Shown: positions 1 to 12,795 of the stretch, one piece after another
Position numbering within the stretch: the first letter of the stretch is position 1
Layout of the letters: each line of letters opens with the position of its first letter
NCBI RefSeq assembly: GCF_002699205.1
Contig: NZ_PABT01000022.1
Span: 1-58,918 of the forward strand
Origin: Allomuricauda sp.
GTDB lineage: Bacteria > Bacteroidota > Bacteroidia > Flavobacteriales > Flavobacteriaceae
Direction of reading: 5' to 3'
Length of the DNA stretch: 58,918 nucleotides
Position numbers and translations under genes: made by a program
The notes under the pieces: model-generated
Database searches by the model: none
What the model was told of the DNA's origin: nothing
What the model saw: the letters and a program-made list of their open reading frames with translations, nothing else

Positions 1-991
1 AGGGATGGGAAGTAAGCCAAATAAAGTAAACAAGTTGTGAATTGCTTTCAGATTTCTACTTTAGTAGATGATTCACAGGGCCCTGTGCAACGCTTTCTGT
101 GGCTTATTAGTTGTGAATTGCTTTCAGATTTCTACTTTAGTAGATGATTCACAGGGTAAACGACTACAAAGAAATCTGCCAAGGTGTTGTGAATTGCTTT
201 CAGATTTCTACTTTAGTAGATGATTCACAGGCCCAAATAATGAGGCCCTCCAGAGGGGTGTGTTGTGAATTGCTTTCAGATTTCTACTTTAGTAGATGAT
301 TCACAGGTCCTTGGTTTTTTTTGGATCTTCAACCTCGGTTGTGAATTGCTTTCAGATTTCTACTTTAGTAGATGATTCACAGGGGAACAGAACGAGAGGT
401 TTAGGGAGGTTGTGTTGTGAATTGCTTTCAGATTTCTACTTTAGTAGATGATTCACAGGCAGTGTCAAAATCAATTCTTGCATGTTGCTGTTGTGAATTG
501 CTTTCAGATTTCTACTTTAGTAGATGATTCACAGGAAGGCTGTTTTTACGGTTGCACAATGCAGAGTTGTGAATTGCTTTCAGATTTCTACTTTAGTAGA
601 TGATTCACAGGCTATGCGGTAGTTTATAGCTTGGAGGAGTTGTTGTGAATTGCTTTCAGATTTCTACTTTAGTAGATGATTCACAGGTGAAAATTTTATA
701 AAGCAGACATATTCCCCGTTGTGAATTGCTTTCAGATTTCTACTTTAGTAGATGATTCACAGGGGTAAATGGCTTTACTTACACCACAGCGCTGTTGTGA
801 ATTGCTTTCAGATTTCTACTTTAGTAGATGATTCACAGGCAATAGACCTGTGGTACTGCTATCTTACCGGTTGTGAATTGCTTTCAGATTTCTACTTTAG
901 TAGATGATTCACAGGAGATTCGTTCCTTGAGAAATTCGGGTACGTGTTGTGAATTGCTTTCAGATTTCTACTTTAGTAGATGATTCACAGG
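1..991 (+). CRISPR. Type II-C CRISPR array, truncated at left edge
   Basis: Thirteen complete, identical 46-bp repeats start at 34 and recur every 76 bp (34, 110, 186 ... 946), separated by 30-bp spacers. The first three bases of the window (agg) match the end of a further repeat, giving an extra 30-bp spacer at 4-33, so the array continues to the left. The repeat begins GTTGTGAATTGC and ends GATTCACAGG; its ends are complementary (TGTGAAT/ATTCACA) and it holds an inner hairpin TCTAC-TTTA-GTAGA. Bases 2-19 pair perfectly with the tracrRNA at 7039-7056, which sets the crRNA strand as plus, converging on cas2. The terminal repeat is not degenerate. The leader, if present, lies outside the window. 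Spacer targets could not be determined by reading. Confidence 0.98.
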
Positions 992-1025
992 ATACCGGCC
1001 ACAACAGGCTGGTATTCTTGTTTTT
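992..1025 (+). terminator. Terminator closing the CRISPR array transcript
   Basis: Directly after the last repeat there is an inverted repeat, ATACCGGCC (992-1000) with GGCTGGTAT (1007-1015), nine base pairs with one mismatch and a six-base loop. It is followed by TCTTGTTTTT. This is the form of an intrinsic terminator on the plus strand, and it supports array transcription toward cas2. Confidence 0.7.
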
Positions 1026-1099
1026 AGCTTCTTTTGTAGAATAAAAAAACAACTACTCAAAATAGACCGGACTTTTTATGGTAGAGCAGATTTCGGGTT

Positions 1100-1480
<381 letters not shown>

Positions 1481-2377
1481 CTATGCAAATTCGGGGTACA
1501 TCAGTTTCCGGCTACTGCCCAAAAAGCATTCGTACAAGCTATTGGTGGTGCGGCTCATGGCGTTCATCAAGGGGCTTTGCTTGCCCTCTATGATTACGTC
1601 CATGGCCGGGATTCGCAACAGTTCGGCTTTTAGGTTCTTGTTAAGTTCCTGGATTTGGCAGCCCGTTTCTACAATATCGTAGACCAGGGCATCTACAAAG
1701 GGTCGGTAAGGCTCCATAATATCGTCCGCCAAGCAAAAGGCATTGTACTTGTTGCGGTGAAAAATACCCACGGAGGGCAGAAGCCCACTGGAACACAGGG
1801 CCCGTGCCGTCACCGCCCGCAAGATGGCATAGCCGTAATTGAGCAGGTTGTTGGGTGGGATGCCTTTTTGGTTGCGGCTAAAGCCTTCTATATCGAACAG
1901 GTGCTGGAAGTAATAGGCCGCGGCAATGGCCTCGTGGTTTTCGACGTCGCCACTTTTTACCTCTTTGGCCCATCGTTTTAGTTTTAGGGCCTTTTTTTGA
2001 CGGGCCAACAAATGCAGGGCCTGGTTCTCTATCTTGGCCATCACCGTCTGTTGCCAGAGCTGTTTTTTTAGGGGCAGGCTGGCGTTTAGTTGGTGGCGCA
2101 TACGCTCGGTCTGCTCGGTATGGCCCACCAAGGGCTGTAGGAAGCTACAGGGCAGGTGCTGTTTGTCGCAGGTGATGACGGCCGTCTTGTTCTGTACCAG
2201 TTTCATCAACAGCCCATTGGTCAGGGTAATCTGTGGGTCTTCGAGCACCACATAGCCCAGATCTTCAATGGCCACTGTTTTTTCTGGTACACCTTCTTCG
2301 GGATAGCGGACGACCAATTGCTCGTTACGGGTACTTAAATAGGCCGGGTTGCCGAAGAACAAGGTTCGCTTGATCAT
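1481..2377 (-). CDS. cas1: CRISPR-associated endonuclease Cas1
   Basis: A 298-residue type II Cas1, the integrase that inserts new spacers at the leader-repeat junction. Diagnostic stretches are IKRTLFFGNPAYLS at the N-terminus, the active-site Glu region DVENHEAIAAAYYF, and the C-terminal block NNLLNYGYAILRA with GLLPSVGIFHRNKYNAF and LADDIMEPYRP. The last two supply the conserved His and Asp of the metal site. Length is normal for type II Cas1. Its ATG lies 3 bp beyond the cas9 stop, so the two are surely co-transcribed and probably translationally coupled. Confidence 0.96.
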   Translation of the reverse strand: MIKRTLFFGNPAYLSTRNEQLVVRYPEEGVPEKTVAIEDLGYVVLEDPQITLTNGLLMKLVQNKTAVITCDKQHLPCSFLQPLVGHTEQTERMRHQLNASLPLKKQLWQQTVMAKIENQALHLLARQKKALKLKRWAKEVKSGDVENHEAIAAAYYFQHLFDIEGFSRNQKGIPPNNLLNYGYAILRAVTARALCSSGLLPSVGIFHRNKYNAFCLADDIMEPYRPFVDALVYDIVETGCQIQELNKNLKAELLRIPAMDVIIEGKQSPLMNAMSRTTNSLYECFLGSSRKLMYPEFA

Positions 2378-2380
2378 GTT

Positions 2381-5300
2381 TTAGACTTTTGAAATATTTC
2401 CTAATCGATTAACCTTTAGTTTAATGCAAACCTCTTTAATGGAAACCCCATTGAAACTAGCTGTCTTTATATCAAATGAACCTGTAATCTTACTTTTTTT
2501 CTTATCATATTGCATATCAACTTCTTTATTACAAATCGATTTAGCTAAATAATTTGGTGTAAAATAGCATGTCCCACCCGAAAAATCATTGACATTAAAA
2601 ATCCTATTAATGCTTTCCTTTGTTAAATTGTCAAAATCAACATGAACACCATTTTCTATTTCTTCTTCCGTAGGAACATACACCAAGTCATTGGGGGAAA
2701 GTGTAAATAAAAATACACCTTTTTTAGGGTCTGGTTGTATGGGGAGGCGTTCCTTTTTCGGTAAATGGGCCACTTGTTTTTGATGTGCTATGACTTCATG
2801 CAAAGGAATGGTCTCAAAATTTCTTTTTTGTTTCTTGTCATCCCAATAAACAGCAAAAAAGAGGTTGGTTCCTTTGGCCGCTTCCACATATTTCTTGCTT
2901 TTGGCCGATTTGTCGTTTTCTGAAATGGAAAATTTGCTTCCCACCTCATACATCTTTACTTTATAAATTGGTTGGTGCTTTTTTCCGTTGTTTAAGGCCT
3001 CGATGTTTTTGTTTAAATCTTCGATTCCTTCATCACTAAAAGCTAAATCGTATTTATGGTTGCCTTTTTCATCCAAATAATTATTTAAATGATTGGGCAA
3101 AATAACATCCCTAATATGTTCATCCGTTATTTTAGCCAAATGCTTTTCATTTTTGATTTCCGACAAAGCCGTTCTTACAGAAGTGGCTATTTTACCTTTG
3201 GGTGTCTTAATATTATAAAGCCCTGATACGGTTTCTTTATGCAATGATTTTCGAATGGCCCAACTATCGCCCTTAGTTTGTTGTCTAAGTTTTTTTACAG
3301 GTTTTCCGTTTTTATCAAGATTTAGGTTACCGTGTTCATCTTTATACGACCAAAATTTATTGGAGGTCTTATTAATGATCCTGATGTTTTGTTTATAACT
3401 CACCACGGTTTTTGCTAATTGGTCTTTTGCTTCTATGGCAAAGCCTTCCCATGGCATCAGGAATGTTTTGGTGTAATCACCTTGGGTACTTTTAATCAAA
3501 AGCTTATCTCTTAAACCATAATTTTTGTTTTCAGCATTTAAGGCACTTAAATAATGTGTATGGTCTCGGGTAGTACAAGCCACTACAATCGCATCCAAGG
3601 CATGATGACGGTGGTCTATTCTCTTTTTATTAAAACCTTTACTAAGTTCATCAGGAACGGTTGGAATGATTTTGCCATTAGTGTTAAGCGTAGTAAAATC
3701 TTTTGATTGGGTTAACTTATTTAGGCGTTCAAATCGTGGCAAAATGATTTCATTCCACTTATCGTTTAAGCCCCAATCGTTTTTCAATTTAGAGGTTACA
3801 GCCCCTGTTACTGGAATTAAGTTTTTGGAAGTGGCTTCTTGCTCACCATCTTGACGTACAATATTACTCAATAAGCCTTTTACCAACTTACTGATATAAC
3901 GGCTATCGTTTAACTGTCTGTTTATAAAACCTTCCGGAACATTTTCACTCAATAAATTTTTAAGTTTTGTTTTATTATTTTTAAAATATTGATTGACATG
4001 GGATTCGTATTCTTCAAGTGTTAGTAATTTATGACCGTTAACTACATTTCCTCCCTTATGACTTAAATATTCATAAGCCGTTTTATTGCCTTTGTTTTCA
4101 TTAACCTCACTTTCACAAATAATTTTATTATTCATCGAATTATCAAAATACCTTGATTGCGGAATAATATGCTCTATCTGATATTCGTGAGTAAACAATT
4201 TAGAAAGCGGGATGGGTTTACCTGTATAAGGAGAAATATAGCCTTGTTCTAACCACAAGCGGTAGCGCTGTATCTCTTTCAGCGTTGGATTATTATTTTT
4301 TCTAATTTTAGAAATCTCATCTTCGCTTACTTTTGAATAATCTGCCTTAGGATTTTGATAAACGCCTTCTTCGTAAATTTTTAAAATCTCTTGATGACTT
4401 GGAGAGTAGGCCCTAATGTCCCCTTCCATTGAAGAGTCTTTCATCAATTCCTTTAACAGTTCTTTGATTCTGTGATTGGTGTTTTCATTTTCATTGTTAC
4501 GCTCCGATATTTTTTTACGCTTATCGGCTGGGTTTTTCATTTCCCTACCTAACTCTACGTGTATTTCATCAAAAAAATCTGGTTGGCCTTCTCCATATTG
4601 TTTCCAGACATCCCTTACCACACGTAAGGTTTCTGTTACCACTTGTTCTACGATAGGGTTTCTAAGAGAGTGTTGCTTGAATTTTTTTAAATAATCATCA
4701 ATGTCATTTGGTATACGCCATTGTTGAATTTCACCAACTTCGGAATGTCTTCCATAAACCAAATATGTAGCTTGATACGTATTTAATCCCTGTATGGGAT
4801 TTTTATCCTTAAAAGGCACAAAGCTTTTTATCAGTTGTTTTGGAATATCATCATCACTTACAGTTTCTAAAGCCTGTTTTATATCCTTGTCAGAATAATT
4901 GGATTTTAATGGCAAAGCATAAACACGTTCCATTATAGCTTCCGCACGGGCTTTTACATCATCAGGAATAAGTGCTTCATTCCAATATTTCCCTCTACGC
5001 ATTAGCGGTAAAAGTTTGTTAATGGCTTTTTGAGAGTAACTACCATAATCACTTTTAAATGGTGGAAATTTCTCAAAATTCTTTACAAAACTTTCCGTGT
5101 CTAAATCATGTTTTAGAGCAAATTTTTTAAGTGCAGATTTGTATTCGTTAACATCTGTTACCGAATAAATAATGTGCCATAATTGCTCCATTCGGCTCAT
5201 GTATGGACTCTTCTCTTTTTTACCCATTTTGGTTTTTTCGTCAAGAAAAGCCTCTACATCATGTAATCCTTCCACTTTACTTAAACGGCTGATGAATTGC

Positions 5301-6919
5301 GCTCTGGTTTCAGCAAAAGGATATTTTTTATCTTCTACGTAATTCCATCGATAGTAATCTTTTTCTTTTTTATCAATTAACTTCTTTTTTACAAAATAGT
5401 CGATGAATTGTTTTTGTTCCAATTCTTTTTTAGCGTTTAAAAAGTCAAACAACGCCACCCAAGCCTCTTCATCTGGGAGTAATTGGCCGGTAACATCCTT
5501 TAAAGTACCATTTTCAATCTGTTCTTTATTGTAGATTTTTAGATTTTGTAACCATTGCCAAATTCTAAATTCTTGGAATAAAGGATGTGATTTTGATATA
5601 GCTTTGATGCCTTTTTTTACGTCTTCGATTTCCCCTGTTTCTTCATTTGTTTGTTTGTGCACCCTGAATTCTAAAGGACATTCTGCAATATTTGATTTTT
5701 GACTTTTTAATGGGCGTTGATAGAAAATAATATCATCGGTAAATAGGTATTTGAATCCTCTATCTTTAATCGTTGTTCTGTGGGCTTCATTATTTGGATA
5801 CAGTTCTTCAATACACTTTTGATACAATTCATCAGTAAAAAGTTCCGGTTGAAGTTGAATTTGCTTACTTATGATTTTGTTGAACTCATCCTTGTAAAAC
5901 TTACGTTCAATGGTTTTTACCAATTTACCCCGAATCTTTTGGTTAGGGTTATCCAACAAGTTTTCATAAATATATTCACCTATTGTTTTATTGGATTGCT
6001 CTATATCCTGTTCCGTTTTTGCTTTTATGGCTATCCAATCTTTTTCTGAATCTACGGCTCTAAAACTTCGTTTTACTATACCTTCTTTATCAAGTTTTAA
6101 AGAACCATCTTTTTCTAATTGAGTCGTAACAATAAACTCTTTGTTTTTTCCAATCCAAGAATTTAAAGGCTCTTTGCTTTGGCGTCTATACACCCAATCA
6201 TTTTCAAGAATAACATTATACCAAGTTCCTCTGGCGTTTTTATCTTCAGTTTCTTGTACGTCTACAACTATTAAATTATGGTATTCTTCTTTTTTGGTGT
6301 CGTCAGTTACAATTTCTTCTCCTCGCAATTGATAATACCCTCGTTTTTGATTGAAATTGAGAATAACCCAGGCCAATTCCTCCTTAGTCAAAGGTTTAGA
6401 TAAGGCTTTTTTACGTAGATAATACAACGTCCAATCGTATGGAATTTTAGTTTCTTCACCATTTTCTTTTTTATAAAACAATTTAGGCTGAGCTACTTTA
6501 AACTCACTAAGCATTTCATTAAAAGAAGCTTGGAAAATAAATTCGTGCTTGCCTTTATCGTTTATGGCATAATTGAGTTTTACTTCTTTTCCGGGCTTAA
6601 ATTGTCCTAACTTTTTCTCAAAATCAATGGCGTCAACATAGTGTTTGGGTAAAAAACCTAAAATATTTAATACACGGTGCAAACGCTCCCTTCTAAGATT
6701 GTCTCGCTGATATAGCCTTCTTACACTTCTATAACCTGTTCTTTCTGCTGTTTGAGAATGTGATTGTCCTGATTCGAACTTTCCTAATATGTCTTGACTC
6801 ATTGGGATAATTCGAGATCCTACACCTAAAATTTGACCTTTTTTTTCTTCAAAATTTTGTTTAATCAATGCCCATCCAATACTGTTGGTACCTAGGTCCA
6901 GTCCTAATATTTGTTTCAT
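2381..6919 (-). CDS. cas9: Type II-C CRISPR RNA-guided endonuclease Cas9
   Basis: A 1512-residue Cas9, large for subtype II-C. It would cut both DNA strands under crRNA:tracrRNA guidance. The RuvC-I motif LGLDLGTNSIGW gives Asp8; an Arg-rich bridge helix follows (RRLYQRDNLRRERLHRVL). RuvC-II HVELGREM has Glu789. The HNH core QIEHIIPQSRYFDNS has catalytic His917, with the NENKGNKTAYEYL continuation. RuvC-III HRHHALDAIVVA has Asp1109. All nuclease residues are intact, so it is predicted active. The roughly 400-residue C-terminal part should hold the PAM-interacting region and is lysine-rich. It is the first gene of the cas operon. The gene is clearly AT-richer than the uptake genes further right. 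The PAM cannot be read from the sequence. Confidence 0.98.
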   Translation of the reverse strand: MKQILGLDLGTNSIGWALIKQNFEEKKGQILGVGSRIIPMSQDILGKFESGQSHSQTAERTGYRSVRRLYQRDNLRRERLHRVLNILGFLPKHYVDAIDFEKKLGQFKPGKEVKLNYAINDKGKHEFIFQASFNEMLSEFKVAQPKLFYKKENGEETKIPYDWTLYYLRKKALSKPLTKEELAWVILNFNQKRGYYQLRGEEIVTDDTKKEEYHNLIVVDVQETEDKNARGTWYNVILENDWVYRRQSKEPLNSWIGKNKEFIVTTQLEKDGSLKLDKEGIVKRSFRAVDSEKDWIAIKAKTEQDIEQSNKTIGEYIYENLLDNPNQKIRGKLVKTIERKFYKDEFNKIISKQIQLQPELFTDELYQKCIEELYPNNEAHRTTIKDRGFKYLFTDDIIFYQRPLKSQKSNIAECPLEFRVHKQTNEETGEIEDVKKGIKAISKSHPLFQEFRIWQWLQNLKIYNKEQIENGTLKDVTGQLLPDEEAWVALFDFLNAKKELEQKQFIDYFVKKKLIDKKEKDYYRWNYVEDKKYPFAETRAQFISRLSKVEGLHDVEAFLDEKTKMGKKEKSPYMSRMEQLWHIIYSVTDVNEYKSALKKFALKHDLDTESFVKNFEKFPPFKSDYGSYSQKAINKLLPLMRRGKYWNEALIPDDVKARAEAIMERVYALPLKSNYSDKDIKQALETVSDDDIPKQLIKSFVPFKDKNPIQGLNTYQATYLVYGRHSEVGEIQQWRIPNDIDDYLKKFKQHSLRNPIVEQVVTETLRVVRDVWKQYGEGQPDFFDEIHVELGREMKNPADKRKKISERNNENENTNHRIKELLKELMKDSSMEGDIRAYSPSHQEILKIYEEGVYQNPKADYSKVSEDEISKIRKNNNPTLKEIQRYRLWLEQGYISPYTGKPIPLSKLFTHEYQIEHIIPQSRYFDNSMNNKIICESEVNENKGNKTAYEYLSHKGGNVVNGHKLLTLEEYESHVNQYFKNNKTKLKNLLSENVPEGFINRQLNDSRYISKLVKGLLSNIVRQDGEQEATSKNLIPVTGAVTSKLKNDWGLNDKWNEIILPRFERLNKLTQSKDFTTLNTNGKIIPTVPDELSKGFNKKRIDHRHHALDAIVVACTTRDHTHYLSALNAENKNYGLRDKLLIKSTQGDYTKTFLMPWEGFAIEAKDQLAKTVVSYKQNIRIINKTSNKFWSYKDEHGNLNLDKNGKPVKKLRQQTKGDSWAIRKSLHKETVSGLYNIKTPKGKIATSVRTALSEIKNEKHLAKITDEHIRDVILPNHLNNYLDEKGNHKYDLAFSDEGIEDLNKNIEALNNGKKHQPIYKVKMYEVGSKFSISENDKSAKSKKYVEAAKGTNLFFAVYWDDKKQKRNFETIPLHEVIAHQKQVAHLPKKERLPIQPDPKKGVFLFTLSPNDLVYVPTEEEIENGVHVDFDNLTKESINRIFNVNDFSGGTCYFTPNYLAKSICNKEVDMQYDKKKSKITGSFDIKTASFNGVSIKEVCIKLKVNRLGNISKV

Positions 6920-7003
6920 GCTCTTGGAAAGTTTGATTTACTTGGAACTTTTTAAAGTTGTAAATTAATAATATTTTAAGATGATCCATTACGGAAAAAC
7001 CTA

Positions 7004-7034
7004 TTTGGTACTTCATCAACTTTTTATATATTTA
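7004..7034 (+). promoter_or_regulatory. Promoter of the tracrRNA gene
   Basis: TTTG at 7004-7007 is followed after exactly 19 bases by TATATTTA at 7027-7034. This fits the Bacteroidota primary-sigma consensus TTTG-N19-TAnnTTTG with one mismatch. The expected start, a few bases downstream, falls at the first bases of the anti-repeat, which ties this promoter to the tracrRNA. Confidence 0.8.
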
Positions 7035-7038
7035 CACA

Positions 7039-7116
7039 TCTGAAAGCAATTCACAATAAGGATTATTCCGTTGTGAAAACATTAAGCCGCCTCGACTTCC
7101 AATTCGGGGCTTTTTA
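7039..7116 (+). ncRNA. tracrRNA of the type II-C system
   Basis: The 18 bases at 7039-7056 are a perfect reverse complement of repeat bases 2-19 (anti-repeat). Next comes AATAAGGATTATTCCG, with the small hairpin GGA-TTAT-TCC where II-C tracrRNAs keep an AAUAAGG nexus, then GTTGTGAAAAC. A terminator-like stem (AGCCGCCTCGA with TCGGGGCTT, two bulges) ends in five T residues at 7111-7115. Length is about 78 nt. The gene diverges from cas9. GTTGTGAA at 7070-7077 is identical to the first eight bases of the CRISPR repeat and could pair back with the anti-repeat (see findings). The start is inferred from the promoter, the end from the T run. Confidence 0.88.
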
Positions 7117-7316
7117 ATTATAACTAAATATTTTAAAATTAACGTACTTTCTGGTTACCCCAACTTTCTCAAATATATTCTTCAGAAGTTGTTGCCAATA
7201 CACAAGTTTGCACGGCCTTCTTCTCGTCAATAAAGTTTTGTGGTGTGGGAATTAATATAAGAATTTTCGATAAGGAAATGAGGATTTCTGTAAAAAGTCA
7301 GATATCAAATATTTAA

Positions 7317-8306: not shown

Positions 8307-11300
8307 ATGCAACAACTGACAACAAGCATGCACAGGGCATTACTGCTTATACTGCTGAATGTCCTTTTGATACCGATTTGTACACAAAAAATGCGGGCGG
8401 GGAATAACCTGGAACCACCACAGTTCACCGTTACCGGTACCGTTACCGATGGCACGGGCGAACCCCTTGCCGGGGTGAACATCGTGGTGGAGTCCAAGAA
8501 TATCGGTACCATTTCCGAATTCGACGGTACCTTTTCCATTCAAGCTGGCCCTACCGATGTACTGGTCTTTTCCATGGTCGGCCTCAAGACCCTTTCCGTG
8601 CCCATTGGGGGCAGGGAAGAGATCCAAGTCTCCATGGAGGAGGACGTGACCCAATTGGGCGAAGTTGTCCTCAATGCGGGGTACTACAGTGTTTCCGGGA
8701 AGGAACGGACCGGGAACATTGCCACCATCAAGGCGGATGTGATTGAGCAGCAGCCCGTGGGCAATCCCTTGGCGGCCATGCAAGGGCATTTGTCAGGGGT
8801 CAACATCGTCCAGAACACAGGAGTGCCCGGTGGCGGCTTTTCCATCGAGGTCCGTGGCCGAAACTTTCTAAGTGGGGTGACCGACCCCTTGTTCATTGTG
8901 GACGGGGTGCCCTTTGGAGCCCAGTCCCTGGGTTCCTATGATGTGTCCAGGGATATCGTTGGCGGGAACATCAGTCCGCTAAACGCCATCGACCCCAACG
9001 ACATCGAGAGCATCGAGGTGCTCAAGGATGCCGATGCCACGGCCATCTACGGTTCCCGTGGGGCCAATGGGGTGGTGCTTATCACCACCAAGAAAGGAAA
9101 GGCCGGGAAGACCCGGTTTGATGCCCGGCTGAGCACGACACTGGGCAAGGTGTCCCGGTTTCTGGACCTAATGGACACCCAACAGTACCTGGAGGTCAGG
9201 CGAGAGGGAATCATCAATGATGGATATGGTTCCTTTTTGGAGAACCCGGACTTTGATTTTGTCTGGCCCGATATCAAATCCTGGGACAATGACCGATATA
9301 CGGATTGGCAAAGGGAACTGATCGGCGGCACCGCCTACCGGAACAATGTCCAATTGTCGGTGTCCGGGGGCAGTGACCGGACCCAGTTTTTGGTCAGTGG
9401 GGCCTATTTGAAGGAAACCACGGTATTTCCCGGGGACAACGACTATAAACGTGCCAACATCCACGGTAGCCTGTCCCATCGTTCGGACAATGGACGCTTC
9501 AAGATGGACCTTACCTTGGGCTATGCCCATGAGGACCATAAGCTCCCAGGGACCGATTTTACCGTCATGGCCTATACCTTGGAACCCAATGCCCCTCGGG
9601 TATATGACGACGAAGGGAACATCAATTGGGAAAACAATACCTGGGACAATCCCTTGGCCGCATTGGACGAACAGTTTGTGTCAGGATCCAGTACCCTGGT
9701 GTCCAATGCCACGGTCTCCTACCATATCATGCCCGACATGGAGTTCAGGACCAGCCTGGGATACACGGATTATCGATTGGATTCGTATAGGACCATGCCC
9801 AGTTCGGCCAGAAACCCCGGCCTGGGCCTTACCCCGCAGAGCTATTCCAATTTGACCACCAATGCCTCCCAAAGGGAGTCATGGATCGTGGAGCCGCAGT
9901 TGAACTGGAAAAAGGATTGGGGATGGTTTTCCATGGATGTGCTCATGGGGACGACCTTCCAACAGGAGACCACCCAACAGCTCGTGTTGAGGGGCACCGG
10001 ATTTCCCAATGACGGGTTGATCGGGAACATGGCGGCGGCCAGTGGTGTGGAGGCCGTTTCCGATTCGGACGGGGAATATCGGTACAATGCCCTTTTTGGT
10101 CGCGTCAACCTCAAGTTTTCGGGCCGTTATATCCTTAACCTTACCGGGAGAAGGGACGGGTCCTCCCGGTTCGGTCCCGGCAAACAGTTCGGAAATTTCG
10201 GGGCCCTTGGCCTGGCATGGCTGTTTTCCGAGGAACCCATATTTGGTGAAGGCTCATGGCTGAGCTTCGGAAAGCTGAGGGCCAGCTATGGAACGACGGG
10301 AAGCGATAACATCGGGGACTACCGGTTCTGGGATACCTATACGGTGACCGGAAGCGATTATGACGGGGTCACCGCCGTGCAGCCCACCGGTGTCTTCAAT
10401 CCGCAGTTCGGTTGGGAAGAGAACCAAAAGTTGGAGGCAGGTTTGGAACTGGGCTTGTTCCAGGATCGGTTGATGGTCAATACGGTTTGGTACCGTAACC
10501 GTTCCTCCAACCAATTGGTGGGCATACCCTTGGCGGCCACCACGGGCTTTTCGGAACTGACGGGAAACTTTGATGCCCTGGTGGAGAATTCGGGATGGGA
10601 GGTCGATATCCAAACCCTCAATATCCGGTCCCGGGCATTCCGATGGTCCTCCACCTTTAACCTGACCGTTCCCAAGAACAGCCTGGTGGAATTTGACGGA
10701 TTGGAGACATCGACCTTTGCCAACCGGTATATTATAGGGGAGCCCCTGACCATTGTAAGGCTCTACCACGCTTTGGGCGTAGATCCCGAGACGGGTTCCT
10801 ACCAGTTCGAGGACTACAACGGTGATGGGGCCATCACCAGCACGGAAGATCGGCAATGGGTGGAAGATCTGGCGCCACAATATTACGGAGGGCTGGGCAA
10901 TTCACTGAGCTTGGGCAACGTGACCTTGGATTTTTTCTTCCAGTTCAAGAAACAAAAGGCCTACAATACCTTACGGTACCAATCGACCCCTGGGTTTAGG
11001 GGCAATGTGCCCGTGGAACTCTACGACCGTTGGCAGGGGCCTGGCGATGTCAAGGATATCCAAAGGGCCTACAGTGGATTGGCACCTACCGGGGGATTGG
11101 GCGAATTCCAACAGGAGAGCAATGCGGCGGTATCGGATGCATCCTTTGTGCGGTTGCGGAATATATCCCTCAACTACCGGCTTCCCGGATTGGGCAACGG
11201 ATTGGATGCCAATGTATACTTACAGGGTCAGAACCTTTGGACCTTGACCGATTACAAGGGACCGGATCCCGAGCAGCCCTCGAATACGCGATTGCCCCCG

Positions 11301-11339
11301 TTGCGCCAGATCACATTGGGACTCCAACTCAGTTTTTAA
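8307..11339 (+). CDS. SusC/RagA-family TonB-linked outer-membrane transporter
   Basis: A 1010-residue TonB-dependent transporter. After a signal peptide (RALLLILLNVLLIPICT) comes a carboxypeptidase-regulatory-like beta-sandwich (FTVTGTVTDGTGEPLAGVNIVV, about residues 39-100). The plug domain follows, with PLFIVDGVPFG and the SusC hallmark DADATAIYGSRGANGVVLIT at about 240-260; the rest is the 22-strand barrel. It works with the SusD lipoprotein encoded 16 bp downstream to import a large substrate, which in this context could be a peptide because a secreted protease follows. It has no STN signalling domain, unlike the SusC at 23962-27366, and no sigma/anti-sigma pair lies beside it. The start was chosen as the first ATG before the signal peptide. 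Confidence 0.93.
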   Translation: MQQLTTSMHRALLLILLNVLLIPICTQKMRAGNNLEPPQFTVTGTVTDGTGEPLAGVNIVVESKNIGTISEFDGTFSIQAGPTDVLVFSMVGLKTLSVPIGGREEIQVSMEEDVTQLGEVVLNAGYYSVSGKERTGNIATIKADVIEQQPVGNPLAAMQGHLSGVNIVQNTGVPGGGFSIEVRGRNFLSGVTDPLFIVDGVPFGAQSLGSYDVSRDIVGGNISPLNAIDPNDIESIEVLKDADATAIYGSRGANGVVLITTKKGKAGKTRFDARLSTTLGKVSRFLDLMDTQQYLEVRREGIINDGYGSFLENPDFDFVWPDIKSWDNDRYTDWQRELIGGTAYRNNVQLSVSGGSDRTQFLVSGAYLKETTVFPGDNDYKRANIHGSLSHRSDNGRFKMDLTLGYAHEDHKLPGTDFTVMAYTLEPNAPRVYDDEGNINWENNTWDNPLAALDEQFVSGSSTLVSNATVSYHIMPDMEFRTSLGYTDYRLDSYRTMPSSARNPGLGLTPQSYSNLTTNASQRESWIVEPQLNWKKDWGWFSMDVLMGTTFQQETTQQLVLRGTGFPNDGLIGNMAAASGVEAVSDSDGEYRYNALFGRVNLKFSGRYILNLTGRRDGSSRFGPGKQFGNFGALGLAWLFSEEPIFGEGSWLSFGKLRASYGTTGSDNIGDYRFWDTYTVTGSDYDGVTAVQPTGVFNPQFGWEENQKLEAGLELGLFQDRLMVNTVWYRNRSSNQLVGIPLAATTGFSELTGNFDALVENSGWEVDIQTLNIRSRAFRWSSTFNLTVPKNSLVEFDGLETSTFANRYIIGEPLTIVRLYHALGVDPETGSYQFEDYNGDGAITSTEDRQWVEDLAPQYYGGLGNSLSLGNVTLDFFFQFKKQKAYNTLRYQSTPGFRGNVPVELYDRWQGPGDVKDIQRAYSGLAPTGGLGEFQQESNAAVSDASFVRLRNISLNYRLPGLGNGLDANVYLQGQNLWTLTDYKGPDPEQPSNTRLPPLRQITLGLQLSF

Positions 11340-11355
11340 CCTTAAACCTATCGGA

Positions 11356-12795
11356 ATGAACATTTTGAACAAAACAATATCTACCAATTTGGGCAATGGC
11401 CCTCGATGCATACGTCTTTTTCGTCAACGCTGTTCCCTGCTCTTCAAGCTCATGGCACTTAGCCTAATCGGTTGCACTGACTTTGTGGAGGTCGAACCGC
11501 CCAAGAACACCTTGGTATCCGAGACCGTTTTTGAAGACCCGGCCACCGTGGAATCGGCCTTGGCCCAGCTGTACCATGCCATGCGGGACGAACAGGGCAT
11601 GGTATCGGGTTTTTATGGCCTGACCACCGCCATGGGAATCTATGCGGATGAACTCGATTATTACGGGTTCAACTCCGATTATGCCCAGTTGTACAATCAC
11701 AACGTACTGGCCGGTAACGGGCTGATAAGGGCTTGGTGGGGCCAGGCATACGAGCTCATCTATGGTGCCAACGACATCCTTCAGGGCGTGGAGTCCTCCC
11801 AGGGCCTGACCGGGGAGGAAAAGCGGGGGTATAGGGGACAGGCCCTTTTTATCCGGGCCTATATCCACAGTTTGCTGGTATCCCTGTATGGGGATGTGCC
11901 CTATATCACGACCACGGATTATATGGTGAACAACAGGGTTTCACGGATGGCGGCCGCAGAGGTTTACGATCGCGTCATTGCCGACCTGGAGGAAGCCTTG
12001 GCATTGTTTGGGGACGGTGGCCCGATTTCTTCGGAACGGATATATGTGGATGCCTTTACCACCAAGGCCCTTTTGGCACGGACGTACCTCTATGCGGGGC
12101 AATGGGAAAAGGCCGCTTTGCTGGCCACGGACCTAATGGATGCCTTTCCCTTGGAGCCCGACCTGGACAAGGTGTTCCTGAAAGGGTCGCCCGAGACCAT
12201 TTGGCAGCTCAAGGCGGATGCCGATAATATCAGGAATACGCAGGAAGCCATTCAGTTGATCATCCAATCGGTGCCCGGCCAGACCTATGCCCTGACGGAA
12301 GGACTTTTGGGCGCTTTTGAAAGTGGCGATCTACGGTTTGACCGATGGGTCTCCAGCGTGTCCGATGCCGACAATACCGTCACACTCCATTATGCCCATA
12401 AGTACAAGGCCGATATCAATGAAACCCGGTCCCTGGAATATTCCATTCGTTTCAGGGTGGCCGAGCAGTATCTGATCCGTGCCGAGGCCAGGCTGCAACT
12501 GGGCGATAAGAATGGTGCCCTTGAGGATATCAATGCCCTGCGCAATAGGGCAGGGCTGCCCGACAGTGGTGCCGATACACCAGAATCGATAATGGATGCC
12601 ATCCTTCAGGAACGCAGGGTGGAACTCTTCACGGAAGGGGGACATCGGTGGTTCGATCTCAAACGATCGGGAAGGGCGGATCAGGTTTTGGGACCGATCA
12701 AACCCAATTGGAGGCCCACGGATGTATTGTTGCCCATCCCGGAGGCGGAACTGGAGACCAATCCGAACCTTTTACCACAAAACACGGGCTATTAG
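11356..12795 (+). CDS. SusD/RagB-family surface lipoprotein
   Basis: A 479-residue substrate-binding partner of the SusC just upstream. A lipobox-like sequence, LMALSLIGCTDF, puts the acylated Cys near residue 40, after an unusually long basic lead. The SusD fold is shown by EPPKNTLVSETVFEDPATVESALAQLYHAM, TPR-like helices in the middle, and the C-terminal signature ILQERRVELFTEGGHRWFDLKRSGRAD found in nearly all SusD proteins. The protein closes the SusC barrel as a lid and selects substrate. The gene lies 16 bp after susC and 37 bp before the protease, so the three are an operon. Confidence 0.93.
   Translation: MNILNKTISTNLGNGPRCIRLFRQRCSLLFKLMALSLIGCTDFVEVEPPKNTLVSETVFEDPATVESALAQLYHAMRDEQGMVSGFYGLTTAMGIYADELDYYGFNSDYAQLYNHNVLAGNGLIRAWWGQAYELIYGANDILQGVESSQGLTGEEKRGYRGQALFIRAYIHSLLVSLYGDVPYITTTDYMVNNRVSRMAAAEVYDRVIADLEEALALFGDGGPISSERIYVDAFTTKALLARTYLYAGQWEKAALLATDLMDAFPLEPDLDKVFLKGSPETIWQLKADADNIRNTQEAIQLIIQSVPGQTYALTEGLLGAFESGDLRFDRWVSSVSDADNTVTLHYAHKYKADINETRSLEYSIRFRVAEQYLIRAEARLQLGDKNGALEDINALRNRAGLPDSGADTPESIMDAILQERRVELFTEGGHRWFDLKRSGRADQVLGPIKPNWRPTDVLLPIPEAELETNPNLLPQNTGY

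Follow-up and report, generated by a model that had tools for sequence, protein, structure and literature searches.

The CRISPR-Cas locus

The window, by which we mean the whole stretch of 58,918 nucleotides analysed here, comes from Allomuricauda sp. and has a CRISPR-Cas9 locus at its start. The array (34..991, plus strand) is followed on the minus strand by cas2 (1100..1447; TIGR01573, 74.4 bits), a type II cas1 (1481..2377; TIGR03639, 305.4 bits) and cas9 (2381..6919; TIGR01865, 427.7 bits), the last encoding a protein of 1512 residues. The three genes are adjacent and fill the space between the array and the tracrRNA gene, with no room for a fourth. There is no gap for csn2 or cas4 among them, and by gene content the locus is therefore type II-C. 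Among the cas1 matches listed from named genomes, the nearest, at 95% identity, comes from Pseudozobellia thermophila (Flavobacteriaceae). Judged by the orientation of the repeat, the array would be transcribed against the cas operon, towards its leader.

The tracrRNA gene lies on the plus strand. Its promoter is as the initial annotation described it, TTTG-N19-TATATTTA at 7004..7034, with TTTG at 7004-7007 and TATATTTA at 7027-7034. It is followed by an anti-repeat (7040..7056, plus strand) complementary to bases 2-18 of the repeat, within which positions 7041-7056 match repeat bases 2-17 at 16 of 16 positions. The predicted tracrRNA (7039..7118, plus strand) has two hairpins and a terminal T-run (-22.3 kcal/mol, z -3.5), and with a start at 7039 its pairing could extend to repeat base 19. 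Directly upstream of the tracrRNA -33 box, at 6990-7004, is a half-palindromic motif resembling ACGGAAA(A)CC(G)TAA, which by eye is present in many relatives and is possibly a regulator site between tracrRNA and cas9. The tracrRNA gene is adjoined by a gene for a small HTH protein of the Cro/C1 type (76 residues, PF01381, 7317-7547, minus strand), and a TonB-dependent receptor (Plug, CarboxypepD_reg) and SusD-like pair is found next to the locus, at 8307-12795.

The array in the window consists of 13 identical repeats of 46 nt, starting at 34, 110 and so on to 946, with twelve 30-nt spacers in between. A second contig of the same assembly (C23) carries 12 repeats, and its final 80 bases are the same as positions 1-80 of the window. 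Its last copy is thus probably the first repeat of the window, in which case the older part of the array is on C23 and the whole array, if the contigs join there, would have about 24 repeats. The repeats (34-991) are also matched by the Rfam family CRISPR-DR50 (RF01363), with a score under the gathering threshold and on the strand that is not the crRNA strand.

A promoter-like element in each repeat

In all 13 copies, TTG at repeat bases 2-4 is followed after exactly 19 bases by TACTTTAG at bases 24-31, as noted in the initial annotation. TACTTTAG agrees with the consensus TAnnTTTG at five of the six fixed positions, the mismatch being an A for the consensus T. In repeat 1 the candidate -33 and -7 elements span 35..64 (TTG at 35-37, box at 57-64). 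The same TTG-N19-TACTTTAG arrangement recurs on the plus strand in repeats 2 (111..140), 3 (187..216), 4 (263..292), 5 (339..368), 6 (415..444), 7 (491..520), 8 (567..596), 9 (643..672), 10 (719..748), 11 (795..824) and 12 (871..900), and in repeat 13 (947..976), which is the newest and lies on the leader side.

When the 3' part of the repeat was shuffled (20,000 trials), at least five of the six positions were matched at a spacing of 17-23 in 10.3% of trials, and at a spacing of exactly 19 in 1.6%. The 13 copies amount to one observation, and with a chance of about 10% the window by itself therefore cannot decide the matter. Elsewhere in the window, TTG-N19-TAnnTTTG with one mismatch occurs 25 times (38 minus the 13 copies), compared to a mean of 24.2 in shuffles of the whole window, and genome-wide there are 143 matches to TTG-N19-TAnnTTTG against 99 for the reversed pattern, only a mild excess. 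The motif TAnnTTTG alone occurs 27 times in the window, fewer than the 42.2 of shuffled sequence (99 of 100 shuffles reach 27), which looks as if stray promoters were avoided.

Conservation of the box in related repeats

Arrays were taken next to relatives of the Cas1 of the window. In named genomes there were at least 584 candidate stretches encoding a Cas1 relative, of which the best 80 loci were used. The order-level search found a relative in 81 of 395 genomes and the phylum-level search in 151 of 395, many of the phylum-level matches being short and to distant, non-type-II Cas1; most, though not all, of the type II loci outside the first 30 of each set were included. The first set comprised 130 arrays with 104 distinct consensuses, the genome of the window being counted once; a 60-nt repeat in L054 was dropped as not CRISPR, and 30 loci had no detectable array. 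To this was added the phylum set, omitting L199 and L206, which are identical to L195 and L203. The truncated consensuses L030, L080 and L145 were dropped, and the full L030 repeat was restored. The final set has 136 distinct II-C repeats, 110 of them long (at least 44 nt) and 26 short. Read on the strand opposite to cas1, 127 of the 130 arrays have GTTG within the first six repeat bases, the three others being the truncated L030 and L145 and, with GTTA, L123. Among the long repeats, the lists read by eye lack TTG at bases 2-4 only in L123 and L176.

Beginning 17-23 bases past repeat base 4, TAnnTT is present in 100 of the 110 distinct long repeats, where shuffling gives an expectation of 12.8. 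At least five of the six box positions are likewise matched in 100 (shuffle 11.3), and all six fixed bases in 26 (shuffle 0.7). On the reverse strand, allowing any TTG, TAnnTT occurs in 10 of the 110 and at least five of six positions in 24. Since the repeats are related by descent, these counts are not independent and clusters give a safer number: when the repeats are clustered by their 3' half, the box is present in 16 of 18 clusters. The two fixed box positions that formed no part of the selection still give the consensus, with T at a frequency of 0.74 and G at 0.67. The spacing from TTG to the box in the 100 repeats is 19 in 54, 21 in 29 and 20 in 6, and more rarely 18 (5 repeats), 22 (3) or 23 (3). 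The end of the box is 12-18 nt from the spacer in the long repeats, and this distance is as constant as that from TTG to the box (sd 1.03 and 1.17, respectively). Ten long repeats have no TAnnTT, and seven of these keep CTTTG (for example TTTCTTTG and GTTCTTTG).

It is this conservation among relatives, and not the single window, that makes the promoter reading strong. By sequence, a putative element for the host sigma factor is present in all 13 repeats, and TAnnTT in 100 of 110 long relatives, and the proposal of the initial annotation that each repeat carries a Bacteroidota-type box is thereby upheld: most of the long relatives have kept the box along with the length. This applies to the TAnnTT box; the TTG is unproven as a -33 element, as discussed below.

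The short repeats are different. TAnnTT is present in 3 of 26 (shuffle 2.6) and absent from 23, and at least five of six positions are matched in 8 (shuffle 2.8). The 36-nt II-C repeats of L154-L167 and L195-L206 (for example GTTGTGGTTTGATTAAAGATTAGAAAACACGATATT) are mostly without a -7 box, as is the common 36-nt repeat found in the family of the window, carried by a genus that we guess to be Flavobacterium. The idea that 36-nt repeats supply GATATT and have their -7 box completed by the first bases of the spacer was rejected, since 634 spacers show no bias to T or G at positions 1-6.

Repeats outside this set were used as controls. Of 20 regions around non-type-II Cas1 genes of the phylum, 16 have arrays, with 15 distinct repeats. 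TTG-N17-23-TAnnTT is found in none of the 15 on either strand; at least five of six positions are matched in one, and TAnnTT occurs anywhere in two. Ten plasmid regions gave three without an array, two from Bacteroidota and five II-C arrays from other phyla. Only one of these five (Ilyobacter) has TAnnTT, and the repeats of Ilyobacter and Azospirillum end in TACAAT, which is -10-like. Both Bacteroidota plasmids carry the box, as TATCTTTG in Phocaeicola and as TACCTTTC in a 36-nt repeat in Persicobacter (where a second, four-copy repeat of 34 nt was left uncounted). This brings the 36-nt repeats with TAnnTT to four, three in the set of 136 and that of Persicobacter, and a promoter footprint as the cause of the repeat length is, with these four, not established.

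Pairing with tracrRNA

The box appears to lie mostly beyond the main stretch of the repeat that would pair with tracrRNA. A long repeat together with a credible anti-repeat is present in 75 loci. Beyond base 17, the unbroken complementarity is at most 3 nt long in 58 of these and 5-12 nt long in 17. In 14 of the 75 the complementarity, at the DNA level, goes to base 24 or further, and could touch the box if the RNA began early enough. The tracrRNA of the relatives seems to have a -7 box of its own just upstream of the anti-repeat: TAnnTT ends 2-13 nt before the anti-repeat in 59 of the 75 loci, compared to 34.8 in shuffles, a moderate excess only, and by eye several of the other 16 have TAnnATTG. 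With a box in that position, transcription of the tracrRNA would begin too far downstream for the RNA to cover the box of the repeat to any large extent. Given the short complementarity past base 17 in 58 of the loci, it is unlikely that the box is kept for tracrRNA pairing.

The TTG is in a different position, being part of the pairing stretch and, as described in the next section, lost without replacement from most decayed oldest repeats, and for these reasons its role as a -33 element is unproven. It has no support of its own, although it may help as a -33 element. Such a weak role agrees with a remark on F. johnsoniae, in which a -33 element could not be found (PMC7366714).

Decay of the oldest repeats

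The old end of the array is inside the locus in 70 arrays, after exclusion of 40 that run off the locus, three with fewer than five repeats and one that is mixed. The oldest repeat differs by at least two bases in 48 of the 70, while on the leader side 68 of 69 arrays have an intact repeat. In the 48 decayed repeats, mutated cells are frequent in TTG (75/144) and in bases 5-17 (253/624) and fewer in the linker (33/320); in the box they number 2/192 for TA..TT, 7/96 for the two free bases and 3/96 for positions 7 and 8, and in the tail 22/709. For the 23 repeats that are changed past base 17, permutation within the repeat gives P=0.0035 for the low TA..TT count. With one array for each distinct repeat (43), the fixed box bases are mutated in 1/172 cells, against 6/86 for the free box bases (P=0.006) and 52/1007 for the other bases from 18 on (P=0.004), and 65 distinct internal variants show the same tendency (5/260 fixed against 9/130 free, P=0.02). 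Compared with the tail alone, TA..TT in the decayed repeats is not significantly different (P=0.15 and 0.24), the tail also being well kept. TTG is lost in 37 of the 48, and another TTG stands at a fitting distance in 7 of the 37, which is the chance level (background 0.18).

Mutations in the first 15 nt of the oldest repeats of II-C arrays have already been reported, by authors who suggest that the decayed oldest repeat must stay a promoter (PMC12080349). The decay of half of the repeat was rejected as sole proof of a promoter, because arrays with 36-nt repeats decay similarly in the 5' half (6 of 20), and none of these six has TAnnTT; half-decay alone is therefore no promoter signature.

The leader hairpin

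Directly after the newest repeat, the leader starts with a stem-loop, ATACCGGCC/GGCTGGTAT, and a T-run behind it (992..1026, plus strand), together a predicted terminator of transcripts that leave the array; positions 990-1030 fold with -18.2 kcal/mol (z -4.6). An automatic search identified a strong hairpin and T-run in 38 of 101 distinct leaders, compared to 14.0 in shuffled sequence. From the hairpin set two groups of leaders were chosen by eye, one of 34 (including that of the window) and one of 28, the latter mostly from another family, which we guess to be Chryseobacterium and its kin. In the group of 28 the stem covaries: it pairs in 87.3% of cells, and there are 48 double-changed cells against a shuffle mean of 17.5, a number reached by 0 of 500 shuffles and with slid controls giving at most 15. 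Counted as pairs with a double change the signal is weaker (8 against 5.7, reached by 28 of 500). In the group of 34, 228 of 306 stem cells are Watson-Crick pairs, with one position mostly unpaired. The T-run follows the stem in 31 of these 34; in the other group all 28 leaders have it, by a test that included the last stem bases. A G-U strand test of the hairpin gave no signal (16 against 11; 5 against 6), so that by this test readings of the palindrome at the RNA and at the DNA level are indistinguishable, and the main pointer to a terminator is the T-run. The hairpin and T-run are likely the terminator of the array, and the stem-loop is possibly also an integration signal.

Proposed mode of transcription

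On the basis of the conserved box, we propose that each repeat probably provides, in its -7 box, a promoter for the main sigma factor, with transcription starting about 11 nt before the spacer and running leaderwards to the hairpin. The sigma-A RNA polymerase would bind the TACTTTAG box of each repeat and start the RNA at about repeat base 36; the transcripts would read through the later repeats towards the leader and stop at the leader hairpin. Such nested transcripts would share one 3' end, and the newest spacer would consequently be present in all of them. Pairing of the tracrRNA with repeat bases 2-18 would give the 3' handle, and the short piece of repeat left at the 5' end would be removed by a nuclease. 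The start near base 36, which had been predicted in the initial annotation, agrees with the promoter box of F. psychrophilum, which has been placed at -12 to -5 (PMC9723704). The annotation had also suggested that each spacer could be transcribed without a leader and without RNase III at the 5' end. The former is in keeping with the finding that neither the region upstream of the arrays nor the leader is clearly enriched in promoters, but the latter must be qualified, since RNA begun about 11 nt ahead of the spacer would carry a remnant that still has to be trimmed.

Several other explanations of the conserved box were considered. One is that the array has a single promoter at its old end and that the box is incidental, which we regard as very improbable. 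Promoters with a full score of at least 9 are in fact found upstream of 5 of 66 arrays, against 0 in shuffled sequence and 2 on the reverse strand, but at a score of at least 8 the enrichment disappears (24 of 66, against 26 shuffled and 25 on the other strand), the best score within 200 nt upstream of the array of the window is 7 of 9, and an incidental box would not persist in 100 of 110 repeats. Promoters reading inwards from the leader are no more frequent than in shuffled leaders (12 of 113 against 16), and a promoter-like score on the sense strand of the leader (57 of 113) was discarded as largely due to composition (shuffled 40.8). It is scarcely credible that selection for an RNA hairpin used in crRNA processing has preserved the region. 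The 3' halves of the 100 long repeats with a box fold little better than shuffled sequence (mean z -0.69, with 19 weaker than -1 kcal/mol) and have perfect arms at the box of 2 to 6 bp, a scant excess on which the hairpin was rejected as a conserved element, even though 11 of the 100 have z below -2 and the repeat of the window contains TCTAC-TTTA-GTAGA (whole repeat -10.2 kcal/mol, z -1.6). The initial annotation had pointed out that promoter and structure share bases; the box does overlap the hairpin in the window, but the hairpin is not conserved in the relatives, and the sharing therefore looks like an accident of this lineage.

It is also conceivable, but in our view unlikely, that TAnnTT serves Cas1-Cas2 or a helper protein as an anchor or ruler in copying the repeat, and is kept for that reason and not for starting transcription. 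This would fit the near-fixed length of the repeats and the distance from box to spacer, which is as constant as that from TTG to box, and also the fact that both box and tail are kept in the leader-side repeats, which are intact in nearly all arrays. However, the fixed bases are those of the -7 box of the phylum, including the unselected T and G, and of the five II-C arrays of other phyla one has TAnnTT and two have a -10-like TACAAT at the repeat end. Moreover, no integration is expected at the oldest repeat, and yet even there mutations are less frequent at the fixed bases than at the free ones.

Transcription from a promoter in each repeat would explain how the Cas9 arrays of Bacteroidota, with their unusually long repeats, could be expressed even though spacers are added at the far 3' end. 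The box would offer a defined target of four bases for a simple mutational test. If these Cas9 systems are moved to a host whose sigma factor does not read TAnnTTTG, their native array may stay silent. A wider reading, which we put forward tentatively and consider somewhat less than even in probability, is that these arrays are stacks of self-starting units, in which the 5' half of the repeat is the guide handle, the 3' half is the sigma-A promoter for the next spacer, a terminator stands by the insertion site, and the length of 46-48 nt gives room for a wide promoter. If this were true, each new spacer would enter between a ready promoter and a terminator, and would be in every nested transcript.

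Comparison with known systems

The II-C array of Neisseria meningitidis reportedly has in-repeat promoters. These are established in the C. jejuni II-C array (PMC3656092), and the likeness of these two systems to the present locus lies in one promoter per repeat and a 3' end made by means of tracrRNA. In C. jejuni the repeat terminates in an extended -10 box (GGTAAAAT) and the RNA starts inside the spacer (PMC3656092), whereas here the box is of the Bacteroidota sigma-A type, the predicted start is inside the repeat, and about 11 nt of repeat would be carried.

Within the phylum, a repeat-encoded promoter (TTG) has been proposed for F. columnare, from eight array reads only (PMC8092290), and for F. 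psychrophilum, in which an array is split by an IS and both parts are transcribed (PMC10309648). These resemble the present array in phylum, in the TTG near the repeat start and in direction; in the text available of both sources the proposals name TTG alone, and no -7 box. The CRISPR1 array of Riemerella anatipestifer is similar in having long repeats of 47 nt, type II-C, a 16-nt anti-repeat and a palindromic leader, but its authors state that its repeats contain no promoter, and they prefer promoters in the leader (PMC5006608). An in-repeat box disagrees with that statement for repeats of this kind, and our prediction, which is drawn from conservation among other long repeats, would contradict it. 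A search of the open PMC literature turned up no account of the phylum-wide -7 box in the repeats of Bacteroidota, nor any mapped 5' end from a long-repeat array of the phylum.

The Cas12a profile TIGR04330 had no match in the genome, and gave no match in control genomes either. The small hairpin of the repeat, TTTCTACTTTAGTAGAT (55-68, and at the same place in each repeat), is not shared by most relatives. It resembles the Cas12a crRNA handle. Unlike Cas12a systems, the locus in the window is that of a Cas9 which uses tracrRNA, and the likeness is probably due to chance.
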